From the NCBI GenBank assembly GCA_002839705.1, contig PGYO01000002.1, positions 1-64,000 on the forward strand: 64,000 nucleotides of DNA, written 5' to 3'. A program made the translations under genes and the position numbers. The DNA is from Methanobacteriales archaeon HGW-Methanobacteriales-1 (GTDB lineage Archaea; Methanobacteriota; Methanobacteria; Methanobacteriales; Methanobacteriaceae). A model generated the notes under the pieces. That model was not told where the DNA came from. It worked only from the letters and a program-made list of their open reading frames with translations, and ran no database searches. This document shows, one piece after another, positions 7,801 through 62,544 of the stretch; positions within the stretch are counted from its first letter, which is position 1; each line of letters starts with the position of its first letter.

Positions 7801-8149
7801 ATTAATGTCTTTGAAACTTTAATAAAGCTTATTTTATTCTATATTCTTTTTACATTTATTTTTGACTGAAAAAGTTAAGAAAAACCAATTAAACCATATT
7901 TGGTCATTTTTTTAAACTAATTTTATTTAAATAATAGTATATGCTTCTTTAATTTTAATTTAAAGTACTTAAAATTATTTTTCACTTTCACAAGATTTAT
8001 ATAAACATTTATATAAAATCTATAATTAGCCTTTATTTGACCTTTTTTACAAATTTATGGCTTAAAATATGTTCATTAAATAAATGAAATAATTGACAAT
8101 AAAATTATTTAGTGATTTTACCACAGGTATCAACTATAAGGTGAAAAAA
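7801..8149 (+). other. Intergenic with promoter
   Basis: 349 AT-rich bases between the flavoenzyme and the exported peptidase. The first part contains T-rich runs that may end the upstream transcript. The second part holds two TATA-like boxes, listed separately, so the leader of the peptidase mRNA would be about 110 nt. No gene or strong hairpin was seen in it. Confidence 0.6.
7996..8017 (+). promoter_or_regulatory. Tandem TATA boxes for the exported peptidase gene
   Basis: The 10-base string TTTATATAAA occurs twice, at 7996-8005 and 8008-8017, 12 bases apart. Each fits the archaeal TATA consensus. They may give two alternative start sites about 25 bases downstream. Confidence 0.55.
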
Positions 8150-8944
8150 ATGAATCAGAAAACCACGAAAGCATTGATTTGCTTTTTAGCTATATTAGTA
8201 GCATTTTCTACAGTTTCTGCTGCATCGGCAGTACAAATTCAAACAATTTATTCTGGAACTGGTGGAGACATTACTAAAAACAAATTGGTTTACAATAATA
8301 TTCCTAAAACTACAATTACTAAGCAAGTAATAGCATCAGCAAAAAAAGGAACCCCAATGGTCACATTTGGTGATGGAAGTGGCCCTAAAGTCATGATAGT
8401 GGCGGGAGTTCATGGGAACGAGTTACCTGCAACAATTGCTGCTATGAAACTCATAAATTATCTCAATGGAAAACATATAAAAGGAACAGTCTACATTGTG
8501 CCCTTTGTTTCCCCTTATTCCACTTCTAAATCCACAAGATATTGGAAAGGTAAAAATTTGAATAGTGTAGCTAATAAAGCAGGCACACCTACAAATAAGA
8601 TAATAACTCTGGCTAAAAAACTCAAAGTTAAATCTTTAGGGGATTTCCATTCTTCAAGACCGGGAGGAGTGCCTGGAAAGACCAGTATTCTATGTACTAA
8701 GTCTCCAACATACGGTAGTTATAAAATGGCATACTACATTAGTAAAAAATCAGGATCAGCTTTAATCTACGAATATAGGGCGGGTGTATCTTATCCTGGT
8801 GCGGTTGAAGACGTTTCTAATTTGGCTAGAATTCCAGCAGTAACTTGTGAGGTTAAATCTTCCCATGGAACTGTTGCTTCAGGGAGTGTAAGTAAATCTT
8901 ACAGTCAAATGTTGGCCTTTTTGAAGTATAATGGTGTTATATAA
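8150..8944 (+). CDS. Exported M14/AstE-like zinc peptidase or deacylase
   Basis: 264 residues with a Sec signal peptide (KK..., hydrophobic stretch at ~8-28, ASA cleavage region). The mature part has the M14-type zinc ligands: HGNE (HxxE) after a VMIVAGV strand, a DFHSSRPG histidine, and a CEVKSSHG glutamate near the C-terminus. A GKNLNSVAN segment resembles the substrate-binding NxNR element. Members are carboxypeptidases or succinylglutamate/aspartoacylase-like amidohydrolases. In a pseudomurein-walled methanogen an exported enzyme could trim wall peptides, which is inference. Start ATG 8150 has AAGGTG 6 nt upstream; the 19-residue extension to 8093 lacks a ribosome binding site and would hide the signal peptide. 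Confidence 0.7.
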   Translation: MNQKTTKALICFLAILVAFSTVSAASAVQIQTIYSGTGGDITKNKLVYNNIPKTTITKQVIASAKKGTPMVTFGDGSGPKVMIVAGVHGNELPATIAAMKLINYLNGKHIKGTVYIVPFVSPYSTSKSTRYWKGKNLNSVANKAGTPTNKIITLAKKLKVKSLGDFHSSRPGGVPGKTSILCTKSPTYGSYKMAYYISKKSGSALIYEYRAGVSYPGAVEDVSNLARIPAVTCEVKSSHGTVASGSVSKSYSQMLAFLKYNGVI

Positions 8945-59078: not shown

Positions 59079-60266
59079 ATGAGCAATGAATATACTTCAG
59101 CAGCAGAATGGGAAGAGGTAAATCTTTTCAAATATATGACCATGGTCAAATCTGGTGTTGTGAAATTCAGTGGATTTAAAAAATACATATCTACTTATTC
59201 ATCTGCAACATCCAGAATAACTGATCATTTTGAGGTCACTTATGATTCCCGGCCTAATAAGGCCAATATGGAATTTGAAGAAAATGACATTATATTTGCT
59301 AAGGCCAAAAATAATGCCCATGTTAATTTAATTGATTCTGATTCCAGTGATAATTTGTATTCAACTGGATTTTTTGGTTTAAGAATTAAAAATAATGATA
59401 AAATACTGCCAAAATTTGTATTTTACTGGCTACGGAGCAATCTATTTCAAAAAGAAAAGGATAAAAATTGTAAAGGAATAATTAAGGAATCTATTAATTA
59501 CTCAGCATTAAAAAATTTTGTAATTCCCCTTCCACCCATGGAAACCCAAAAAGAAATTGTGGAAATCCTTGAAAGAGCTGAAAAATTAAAGGAATGGCGC
59601 CCTAAAGCGGACAAATTATCTGCTGACTATTTGGAGAGTGTATTCCTGGAGATGTTTGGTGATCCTTTTACAAATCCAAATATCTGGGAAGAAAAAACAT
59701 TGGATGAGGCCTGTTATACCATCAAAAATGGATTAAATACAGTCCGCTATAGGGATGAAGGAATTCCTTTTATTTTTGCTAAGGATATTATAAATGGACC
59801 TGATGATTTTGAAAACAATGGTCATAGTAAATATATTGGTCTGGCAGATTATCTAAAATTTATAAATAAATGCCGTCCTGAAAAGGGTGATGTTCTTTAT
59901 ACGAAAGGGTTTAAAACTGGATTTGCTAAATATGTTGATAATGATCGTGATTTTTCCATTTGTGAGCACTTAGCAGTTTTAAAATTTGATGTGAATCAAA
60001 TTAATGGCATTTTTTTAGAGTATATGTTAAATTCAGATTACTGCTATAATCAATCTAGGATATTTACTCGAGATGCATTTAATCAAAATCTGGTAATTGC
60101 TCAGATGAAAAGAATAAAGATATTGATCCCACCAATAGATCTTCAAAACCAATTCGCAGAGTTTGTTCAGGAAATAGAAATTCAAAAATCTCAACAAGCT
60201 GAATCCAAAAAAGAGATTGATGGGATATTTGATAATGTTCTGGAAAGTGTATTTGAATGGGAATAA
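59079..60266 (+). CDS. hsdS: Orphan type I restriction-modification specificity subunit (HsdS)
   Basis: 395 residues. Two target-recognition domains are arranged as usual: TRD1 (~1-150), first conserved helix (IPLPPMETQKEIVEILERAE then EKLKEW), TRD2 (~195-345), second helix (IPPIDLQNQFAEFVQEIEIQ). HsdS chooses the DNA sequence methylated or cut by HsdM/HsdR, neither of which is within 4 kb on either side. It may serve a complex encoded elsewhere or be a remnant. TRD1 begins without the usual preceding sequence and may be slightly short. GTGGG precedes the ATG. Confidence 0.88.
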   Translation: MSNEYTSAAEWEEVNLFKYMTMVKSGVVKFSGFKKYISTYSSATSRITDHFEVTYDSRPNKANMEFEENDIIFAKAKNNAHVNLIDSDSSDNLYSTGFFGLRIKNNDKILPKFVFYWLRSNLFQKEKDKNCKGIIKESINYSALKNFVIPLPPMETQKEIVEILERAEKLKEWRPKADKLSADYLESVFLEMFGDPFTNPNIWEEKTLDEACYTIKNGLNTVRYRDEGIPFIFAKDIINGPDDFENNGHSKYIGLADYLKFINKCRPEKGDVLYTKGFKTGFAKYVDNDRDFSICEHLAVLKFDVNQINGIFLEYMLNSDYCYNQSRIFTRDAFNQNLVIAQMKRIKILIPPIDLQNQFAEFVQEIEIQKSQQAESKKEIDGIFDNVLESVFEWE

Positions 60267-60401
60267 TTGGTTTTTATTAGTTTGAATTAAATGGATAATG
60301 TATTGAAAATAAAATTCAAATTATTTTAATTGATTATTATTTTCTCAATTTTTAATCAATAGGTAATTTTATAAACTTTGAAAACAATCTTCTATTTCAG
60401 G

Positions 60402-60474
60402 TAATTCCTGGGGGCCTGCACCCTATTTGGCTGCACACGAGCTCACGTTCCGAAGGCCCTCGGGTACTGAATTA
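60402..60474 (+). ncRNA. GC-rich structured RNA candidate upstream of the lipid prenyltransferase
   Basis: A compact GC-rich island in AT-rich DNA. An 11-bp stem joins 60407-60417 (CCTGGGGGCCT) with 60454-60464 (AGGCCCTCGGG), all paired with two G-T wobbles. It is extended outside by TAATT 60402-60406 with AATTA 60470-60474 across a 5-nt bulge. Inside are a 5-bp hairpin (GCACC 60418-60422 with GG 60429-60430 and TGC 60432-60434, one bulge) and a weak 3-bp one. It does not match tRNA, SRP or RNase P RNA as I know them. It lies 36 nt before the ubiA-type ATG, so it may be a leader element of that gene. Confidence 0.5.
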
Positions 60475-60510
60475 TACTTATTCTATTTTAAAAACTAAAT
60501 TAAGATTCTA

Positions 60511-61368
60511 ATGTCAGCCATTCCTAAAATAAAAGCCATTATTCAATTATTCAGGCCAGATTTATCACTAGCTGCAGGAATCTGTGTGGTGGTAGGTGAA
60601 TTACTAGCTCTGGGCCATTTTCCTCAATTTCAAGAAATAATTCTTGGTTTTGCAGTCGGATTTTTTATTTCCGGTTCCACCCTAATTTTAAATGACTATT
60701 TTGATTTGGAAACTGATAAAATAAATGCTCCTAATAGGCCATTGCCATCAGGAATGATTAAACCAGCTCATGTGATTTTTTTATCCATTATTACTGCATT
60801 AATTGGCTTACTGGCCTCTTTTATTATTAGTTTCTTGGCTTTAGCTGTGGCCATAGTTTTATGGACTATAGGATTTTTATACAACTGGAAATTAAAAAGA
60901 ACAGGATTGCTGGGTAATCTGCTGGTAAGTTCATCAGTGGCCATTACTTTTATTTTCGGGGCAATTGTGGTGGGAAACCCCTGGATTATAGTAGTTTGGG
61001 TTTTTAGTGCCATAGCATTTTTCATAGATCTGGGAGAAGAGATTGCTGCTGATGCTCTGGATATGGAAGGAGATAAAAAGATAAACTCCCAATCTCTGGC
61101 CTTGAAACATGGTCAAAATAATGCACTTAAAATTTCAGCAGTTATATTTGCATTAGTAGTTTTAATAAGCCTTATTCCTTTTATTCTAGGGTGGTTGGGG
61201 ATTACTTATCTTCTTATGATATTATTCATGGATTCTATAATTGTTTATTCTACTTTTAAATTATTAAAAAGTGAGATTATAGATGAAAAAAGAAAATATG
61301 CTCGGTTTATTTACTTAGGGGCCACTTTGGGATTGGTGGCTTTTGTCATTGGTCAAATATTGATTTAA
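60511..61368 (+). CDS. Digeranylgeranylglyceryl phosphate synthase (UbiA family)
   Basis: 285 residues, eight to nine membrane spans. It adds the second geranylgeranyl chain in archaeal lipid synthesis. Both aspartate-rich motifs of UbiA are present: NDYFDLETDKINAPNRPLPS near residue 67, and the DGGGP-type second motif DLGEEIAADALDMEGDK near 171. No clear Shine-Dalgarno site precedes ATG 60511, but the strong RNA structure at 60402-60474 does. Together with carS and the tes-type gene it makes three ether-lipid steps in the window. Confidence 0.9.
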   Translation: MSAIPKIKAIIQLFRPDLSLAAGICVVVGELLALGHFPQFQEIILGFAVGFFISGSTLILNDYFDLETDKINAPNRPLPSGMIKPAHVIFLSIITALIGLLASFIISFLALAVAIVLWTIGFLYNWKLKRTGLLGNLLVSSSVAITFIFGAIVVGNPWIIVVWVFSAIAFFIDLGEEIAADALDMEGDKKINSQSLALKHGQNNALKISAVIFALVVLISLIPFILGWLGITYLLMILFMDSIIVYSTFKLLKSEIIDEKRKYARFIYLGATLGLVAFVIGQILI

Positions 61369-61401: not shown

Positions 61402-61929
61402 CTAAAAACCATCATCCTGCACACTTACACAGAAGCGACACAGTGCACTAGGAGTATTGATTTGTTTTTCCTTAACTGGACAGTAATAAACACTATTTTC
61501 ATATCTTAAAACAAAACCACCAGGAAACTTAGTTCCCACCGGGTGAATGGACTCTTCTCTGACAAAAGCAGTGTAGGTGGCCACAATACGAGCAATCTTG
61601 TGAAAGCAAAGCTCATGGTGGCTCCGGGACTCATCTTTTTGCATTTCCATCACCTGCAAAAAATCATTTAACTTTTTATTATTTACCAAACCCTCGTAGT
61701 GGGCCTTATCTTCTTTAATATCTTTTATTCTAATGAAAAAGGCCCGAGTAAATCTTTCAATATATTCTTTTTGCTCTTTTATAGGCATAAACTTAGCATC
61801 TTCCTTCAAATACCCACTTGCATCCATAATTTCTTTAATATGGATATTACGAGCCTCTTTTTTTAGAATCTCTAGAAGATCCATTTTACTAAGGGGAATT
61901 GTAAAATCAATATTATCAATTTTTAACAT
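61402..61929 (-). CDS. DUF2115 (UPF0305) family protein, copy 1
   Basis: 175 residues. It matches a methanogen family of unknown role, by its C-terminal signature: [20 protein letters not shown], then YYCPVKEK, and CRFCVSVQD, which leaves three cysteines for metal binding. The helical N-terminal part begins MLKIDN. I chose ATG 61929 because it aligns with the start of the paralogue and has GTGA upstream; GTG 61938 is in that site. It is a tandem duplicate with the gene at 62020. Confidence 0.75.
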
Positions 61930-62019
61930 ATAATTCACGTAATTAATGATTTTTGATGATTAAAAGTGCTTATTTACTTTTTAAGATTTTTTCTAATTAA
62001 TGAATTTAAATAACCTTTT

Positions 62020-62544
62020 TTAAACACTTTCATCCTGTTCTGCAATACAAAAACCACATACTGCTCCTGGATTGTCCTTTTGGCTTTCTTTAACCGGGCA
62101 AAAGTAGGTTTCACCCTCTAATTTAACCTCAAAACCTCCAGGAAATGGTGTTCCAGTGGGATGGATGGGTTCATCCAGGACAAAAGTGGTGTAAACTGAT
62201 ATTATCATGTAAATTTTAAAAAATGAATGATTGAAATCCTCATTTATATCATTATTTGCTTTTTGCTCTTTTAATAAATCAAGAGCGGATTTAAACTCTT
62301 CAAAGTCTAATTCTCCGGAATATTGGCCCTTATCATTTTTTAAATCAGTTATTCGTATGATAAAACCATCCACATAAGCTTTCACAAACTTTTTCCGGTA
62401 ATCGGCCTGTATATAAATGGCATCTTCATGAATAAAATTACTGGCAGAGATAATATCAGATATACCTATGGGACGGGCCTTTTTTTGCAGGATTTTTAAT
62501 AATTCCTGTTTAGATAATTCTTTTTCCCAGTTTAAATCCAGCAT
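62020..62544 (-). CDS. DUF2115 (UPF0305) family protein, copy 2
   Basis: 174 residues, paralogous to the preceding gene: the same ELLKILQKKAR start helix (ELL.IL.K.AR in both), HPTGTPFPGGFEVKLEG, YFCPVKES and CGFCIAEQDES with the three cysteines in register. It lies upstream of copy 1 on the same strand, with 90 bp in between. AAGTGA precedes ATG 62544. It sits 73 bp after the stop of the helicase gene. Confidence 0.75.
   Translation of the reverse strand: MLDLNWEKELSKQELLKILQKKARPIGISDIISASNFIHEDAIYIQADYRKKFVKAYVDGFIIRITDLKNDKGQYSGELDFEEFKSALDLLKEQKANNDINEDFNHSFFKIYMIISVYTTFVLDEPIHPTGTPFPGGFEVKLEGETYFCPVKESQKDNPGAVCGFCIAEQDESV

Follow-up and report, generated by a model that had tools for sequence, protein, structure and literature searches.

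An RNA element beside a UbiA-family gene probably represents a new Methanobacteriaceae family of structured RNAs

We analyzed a stretch of 64,000 nucleotides of DNA (the window) from Methanobacteriales archaeon HGW-Methanobacteriales-1, referred to below as genome G000. In this window, a type I restriction specificity gene (HsdS, 59079-60266) is located between a LigB-like gene and a short folded element, which is followed by a gene encoding a UbiA-family prenyltransferase and by two tandem adjacent DUF2115 genes (61402-61938 and 62020-62544) that are conserved in relatives. HsdM was not seen among the ORFs listed around HsdS (57.5 to 64 kb), and HsdS itself is missing at the corresponding site in genomes G013 and G010.

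The initial annotation had described the element as a GC-rich island in AT-rich DNA, and indeed its G+C content is about 50%, compared to 11 to 35% across most of the flanks. The 11-bp stem reported at that time proved exact when read from the sequence (60407-60417 pairs with 60454-60464, including two G-U wobbles), and the same was true for an outer 5-bp extension (TTCAG at 60396-60400 with CTGAA at 60467-60471). The suggested three-way junction was borne out by the predicted fold, in which there are two inner hairpins, P3 and P4. The strand thus starts with P1 on the outside, followed by a GUAAUU/UA internal loop, the 11-bp P2 and the junction with its two hairpins (Table 1). Within the basal loop, U60402-A60466 and A60403-U60465 could also pair. 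The predicted fold of 131 nt has an energy of -33.4 kcal/mol (z = -3.0), and only 1 of 200 dinucleotide shuffles was as stable. Beyond what had been annotated, a TATA-like box and the motif GAAAACAATCTT lie upstream; the RNA unit begins 5' of the stretch originally delimited and probably ends near 60489.

Table 1. Features of the RNA locus in the window (subtypes A and B are described in the text)
Feature	Coordinates	Strand	Remarks
TATA-like box TTTATAAA	60368-60375	+	About 30 nt 5' of the first family-wide paired base; putative promoter
Upstream motif GAAAACAATCTT	60380-60391	+	Common to subtypes A and B (alignment)
P1, 5' strand TTCAG	60396-60400	+	Innermost three pairs CAG/CTG kept in 9/9 family sequences
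Asymmetric internal loop, GUAAWW opposite UR	60401-60406	+	GTAA in 8/9 members, ATAA in the ninth
P2 main stem, 5' strand	60407-60417	+	Three double compensatory pairs in subtype A; recovered unprompted by RNAalifold over A + B
P3 hairpin of the three-way junction	60418-60434	+	A single wobble change, no other variation
Invariant core GCACACGAGCTCACGTTCCGA including hairpin P4 (60439-60450)	60433-60453	+	Same in 5/5 subtype-A copies
P2 main stem, 3' strand	60454-60464	+	Same covariation as 5' strand
P1, 3' strand CTGAA	60467-60471	+	Sequence, alignment
U-rich candidate terminator TTCTATTTT	60481-60489	+	Similar run 3' of subtype-B copies; putative termination
UbiA-family prenyltransferase gene, accessory	60511-61368	+	PF01040; neighbor, probably outside the RNA unit

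Among the checks proposed in the initial annotation were whether the stem is conserved in relatives and whether its 11 bp show compensatory changes. The stem is kept in five genomes from three genera of the Methanobacteriaceae: besides the window, we found the element in G001 and G002 (same genus, 99 to 100% identity), G013 (91%) and G010 (83%). We named these copies subtype A. They harbor three double compensatory pairs in P2, as exemplified by CCTGGAAGCCC/GGGCTTCCAGG in G010 versus CCTGGGGGCCT/AGGCCCTCGGG in the window; this covariation comes from five genomes but three distinct sequences. P2 was paired in 100% of the alignment cells, compared to 20 to 51% for slid versions of the whole structure. 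Allowing up to 3 mismatches, the core GCACACGAGCTCACGTTCCGA was absent from 139 family genomes outside the five subtype-A copies.

The RNA stretch 60393-60480 is 99 to 100% identical in G001 and G002, and the rest of the locus is 88 to 93% identical. By our own estimate, 88 identical bases would be unlikely to arise by chance (about 0.002 for G002 at 93%). Directly upstream, the block 60361-60392 shows 97% identity in both genomes, and the DNA immediately 5' of this block shows 49 to 59%. The conserved island thus begins at the TATA-like box.

ARAGORN found no tRNA at the element, in agreement with the initial annotation, and a cmscan search against Rfam, which had been recommended there, gave no match at either gathering or permissive thresholds. 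The Rfam covariance models for SRP RNA, RNase P RNA and known riboswitches thus did not match. At E values up to 5 to 10, Rfam also gave no match for the window copy, one copy of the second subtype, the G001 locus or the plasmid RNA described below, and its archaeal guide RNAs did not match the window copy. As judged by eye, the 3' side of the basal loop, at 2 nt, leaves no room for a guide pocket, and a C box is absent; we rejected an H/ACA or C/D guide RNA. A small peptide was likewise rejected because the reading frames across the RNA are neither long nor shared. As for a virus origin, neither the subtype-A core nor two subtype-B patterns had a match in IMG/VR; a short 16-mer had 67 matches in the virus search, which we judged to be due to chance, and 0 were confirmed by the covariance model. 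A phage search for the RNA gave no match.

One of the two roles initially suggested was a cis-acting leader of the downstream membrane-lipid gene. We considered this role as a leader or riboswitch folding around the ribosome-binding or start region of UbiA. The arrangement is suggestive: the RNA precedes an intact UbiA gene in G000, G013 and G010, with the gene starting about 36 nt downstream in these three genera; UbiA has no clear ribosome-binding site; and the gap between RNA and UbiA is 80 to 93% identical in G001, G002 and G013. However, this gap is just 47% identical in G010, and we saw no switching element that reaches the start codon. Moreover, a leader would always be located 5' of the gene it regulates and would be lost with it. 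In G002, UbiA is reduced to approximately its first 30 codons and in G001 to two internal fragments, yet the RNA is retained almost unchanged in both. Furthermore, a UbiA relative in G028 (65% identical) has no such RNA upstream, and the subtype-B copies are not located 5' of UbiA. Like riboswitches and other metabolite-sensing leaders, the element has a compact conserved fold close to a biosynthetic gene, but unlike them, it outlives the loss of this gene, shows no expression platform and has relatives elsewhere. Because the RNA is retained where the gene has been lost, we rejected this reading: the RNA is probably not a UbiA leader, and a cis-acting switch around the UbiA start appears quite improbable.

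The UbiA gene itself has a patchy distribution and is decayed in the two sister genomes. A second UbiA is encoded in G000 (C14:22146-22955), sharing 29% identity with the window UbiA. Since this second type was found in 13/13 genomes tested, the window UbiA is an accessory paralog.

A covariance model built on subtype A only retrieved G014:C28 (E value of 3e-4) and a locus in G000 (C9:179391; E value of 0.05), and a joint model of these and subtype A added copies in G001, G002 (two) and G010. We refer to them as subtype B. When 152 genomes across the phylum were scanned with models that expect short inserts and may therefore have missed long-arm relatives, no further carrier genome came up; the host genomes are mostly draft assemblies. 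Weak matches in G028, G008 and G111 were taken as chance. Each carrier genome harbors one to three family copies. The two subtypes have CAGGTAAAACCTGG...CCAGGTRCTG in common, but the apical hairpin of subtype B differs (GTGTACC TTGA GGTGCAC).

In the alignment of nine distinct sequences of both subtypes, the structure was paired in 97% of the cells, compared to 24 to 49% for slid versions. Three pairs, comprising seven cells, were doubly changed, and 0 of 500 shuffles reached seven cells, a count that is not a probability since the nine sequences are related. RNAalifold found P1 and P2 unprompted, again with three doubly changed pairs. This support comes from nine short sequences only, among which hairpin P4 shows no variation. 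As judged from these alignments, P2 displays the compensatory changes expected of a structured RNA. Additionally, the TATA-like box and GAAAACAATCTT were found at a near-constant distance from the RNA in both subtypes. Exact matches to the 14-base form RAAAACAATCTTNA number 6 in six genomes, and 3 of them lie immediately 5' of subtype-B RNAs; its single exact match in the window is upstream of the RNA. Since GAAAACAATCTT played no part in the covariance models by which subtype B was found, its presence in both subtypes gives independent support to their homology. Covariation, a private motif at promoter position and paralogs elsewhere thus support the part of the initial interpretation that proposed a separate small RNA, while the leader part did not stand. 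We conclude that the element is very likely an RNA gene of a new Methanobacteriaceae family.

For subtype B, an alternative fold with two hairpins is equally compatible, and this is the ViennaRNA minimum-energy fold in most copies. Both folds being feasible in models of six sequences, subtype B may act as a bistable switch.

Subtype A is syntenic, occupying one chromosomal site in three genera. Subtype-B loci are mostly found within type I restriction or toxin-antitoxin islands, where their neighbors include type I restriction genes, MNT/HepT, DUF2283, DUF1802 and DUF3800. Subtype-A copies likewise stand beside such genes, namely, HsdS in the window and ParE/YafQ-type genes in G001, G002 and G010. 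In a tree of the neighboring helicase, the subtype-A genomes are close together and G014 is distant, indicating that subtype B was either transferred or else repeatedly lost; a branch with weak support places one other genome, G016, among the subtype-A genomes. The G001 RNA and its convergent DUF3800 gene together span about 850 bp, which are missing from G002:C4 although the two flanking genes are the same. The stretch thus behaves as a cassette.

Several subtype-B loci had further features. In G002:C1 (locus L080), two diverged RNAs (7918-7989 and 8596-8668) flank a DUF2283 gene; one of the two has lost two P2 pairs and gained pairs in the alternative fold. In G014:C28, tandem TTAGGTTTCTGA-like 12-mers (L062, 1550-1694) adjoin the RNA. 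At G014 locus L084, 7 nt separate the end of the subtype-B RNA (1042-1111) from the stop codon of a convergent gene (391-1035), which has no Pfam or NCBIfam match and, by eye, is possibly a PIN-type nuclease.

The islands raise the question of whether the RNA could be a component (decoy, antitoxin or regulator) of MNT/HepT or ParE/YafQ toxin-antitoxin modules. The second L080 RNA is followed after 19 nt by an MNT nucleotidyltransferase gene, the region directly 5' of the subtype-A RNA in G013 holds MNT and HepT in decayed form (L083, 14162-14613; about 75 nt away), and ParE-type genes are divergent and upstream of the RNA in G001, G002 and G010. Nevertheless, the partner varies by locus, the orientation is inconstant, and, as described in PMC7641770, a protein already serves as the antitoxin of HepT, so that we regard such a role as very unlikely. 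Even less probable, to the point of being hardly credible, is an untranscribed DNA-level element such as a transposon end or a hairpin recombination site. The element is an imperfect palindrome and subtype B behaves as a moving cassette, as such a site might, but synteny holds for subtype A across three genera, the asymmetric loop has been preserved, the motif at promoter position is shared, there are only one to three copies per genome, and no transposase was recognized among the listed neighbors.

Two subtype-B copies, in G001 and on a Methanobacterium congolense plasmid, are convergent with a DUF3800 gene, and at the third locus, in the window's own genome (G000:C9), the RNA is followed by a DUF3800 remnant. 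RNA and DUF3800 are thus arranged end to end in three loci (two genes and one remnant). The plasmid copy was the only plasmid match (plasmid II, NZ_LT607757.1, 2454-2407, minus strand, 96% identity to subtype B). The DUF3800 gene lies at 1663-2259 on the plus strand, and the 3' half of the RNA, AGTACTTCCAGGTGCTGG, is located within a few bases of its stop codon; an extra arm of about 110 nt separates the matching halves. The whole RNA-like stretch, about 190 nt and unannotated (L190, 2262-2449), abuts the gene convergently, and the complete 199-nt RNA folds as P2, P3 and a long third arm (-56 kcal/mol, z = -2.7). The plasmid and G001 DUF3800 proteins are 54% identical. No DUF3800 gene was found near the subtype-A copies, including that of the window, nor near 4 of the 6 chromosomal subtype-B copies (G010, G014 and both in G002). 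A Methanosphaera plasmid encoding a 39% identical DUF3800 protein showed no family RNA in the 6.6 kb examined, and searches of viral contigs and of phages yielded no DUF3800 relatives.

DUF3800 has been described as an RNase H-fold domain that occurs with CRISPR effectors and was earlier linked to putative noncoding RNAs (PMC10910872, PMC12669027). DUF3800 RNA motifs are present in Rfam (PMC11701678), for example, RF02969 (DUF3800-I) and RF02968 (DUF3800-IX) (Weinberg et al. 2017, as cited in PMC10910872). Like these motifs, subtype B consists of structured RNAs adjoining DUF3800 genes. However, cmscan with permissive filters gave no DUF3800 family for the window, G000:C9 and G010 copies, the plasmid RNA or the G001 locus; several family members, besides the window copy, lack a DUF3800 neighbor; and the new family has so far been seen only in Methanobacteriaceae. 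By sequence comparison, it therefore falls outside the Rfam DUF3800 motif families but resembles them in gene neighborhood.

Could the proximity of subtype B to DUF3800 be a mere coincidence of residence in defense islands? The RNA would then be unconnected with DUF3800 and would act in trans as an antisense small RNA, regulating mRNAs by means of its invariant core GCACACGAGCUCACGUUCCGA. The perfect conservation of this core across three genera and the existence of solo copies in both subtypes are consistent with this idea. On the other hand, the convergence recurs on a plasmid and a chromosome with DUF3800 proteins that are 54% identical, and no long antisense match to the core was found in 139 family genomes, in a search for matches longer than short seeds. 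We therefore consider this explanation rather unlikely.

We thus favor, with some reserve, an independently transcribed RNA family in which subtype A is the solo form and the mobile members are found with DUF3800. The stretch 60396-60471 would be the folded body of a small RNA of about 75 to 100 nt, with its own putative promoter (TATA near 60368), starting near 60398 and ending near 60489. Family members share a conserved basal stem with the asymmetric GUAAWW/UR loop and the main stem, and they vary in the apical part. Subtype A, including the window copy, is the solo form fixed at a single chromosomal site, and subtype B is a mobile form whose copies are found on a plasmid as well as in islands of restriction and toxin-antitoxin genes. 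As the likeliest mechanism, the conserved fold may be that of a protein-binding RNA, which originally could have formed a ribonucleoprotein with the RNase H-fold DUF3800 protein in a mobile or defense module, and solo copies such as the window RNA would act in trans. A partnership with DUF3800 as the ancestral role is a tentative suggestion, somewhat doubtful in our view. The further proposal, that RNA and DUF3800 form a two-part mobile RNA-dependent nuclease whose solo chromosomal RNAs were domesticated, e.g., for immunity or control, is speculative and unlikely.

With archaeal trans-acting small RNAs, the element has in common that it is short and intergenic, with a structured body and a putative promoter of its own; its three-way junction, asymmetric basal loop and paralogs in defense islands set it apart. 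Type III toxin-antitoxin RNAs and the omega RNAs of IS605-orfB elements are structured RNAs located beside a nuclease gene on mobile DNA, and in this sense, they might work like the new family. However, the order here is convergent, there are no tandem repeats, neither a toxin of this type nor TnpB was recognized, and Rfam gave no match.

To our knowledge, the structured RNAs described from methanogens are few, and some of these methane-making archaea very probably carry an RNA family that was previously unlisted. Our analysis corrects the tempting but poorly supported reading of a lipid-gene riboswitch. With a conserved archaeal fold and a convergent DUF3800 gene on a small plasmid of a named isolate (M. 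congolense Buetzberg), the family offers a compact case for studying the role of DUF3800-adjacent RNAs. That solo copies are kept without the neighboring genes suggests a function of the RNA itself.
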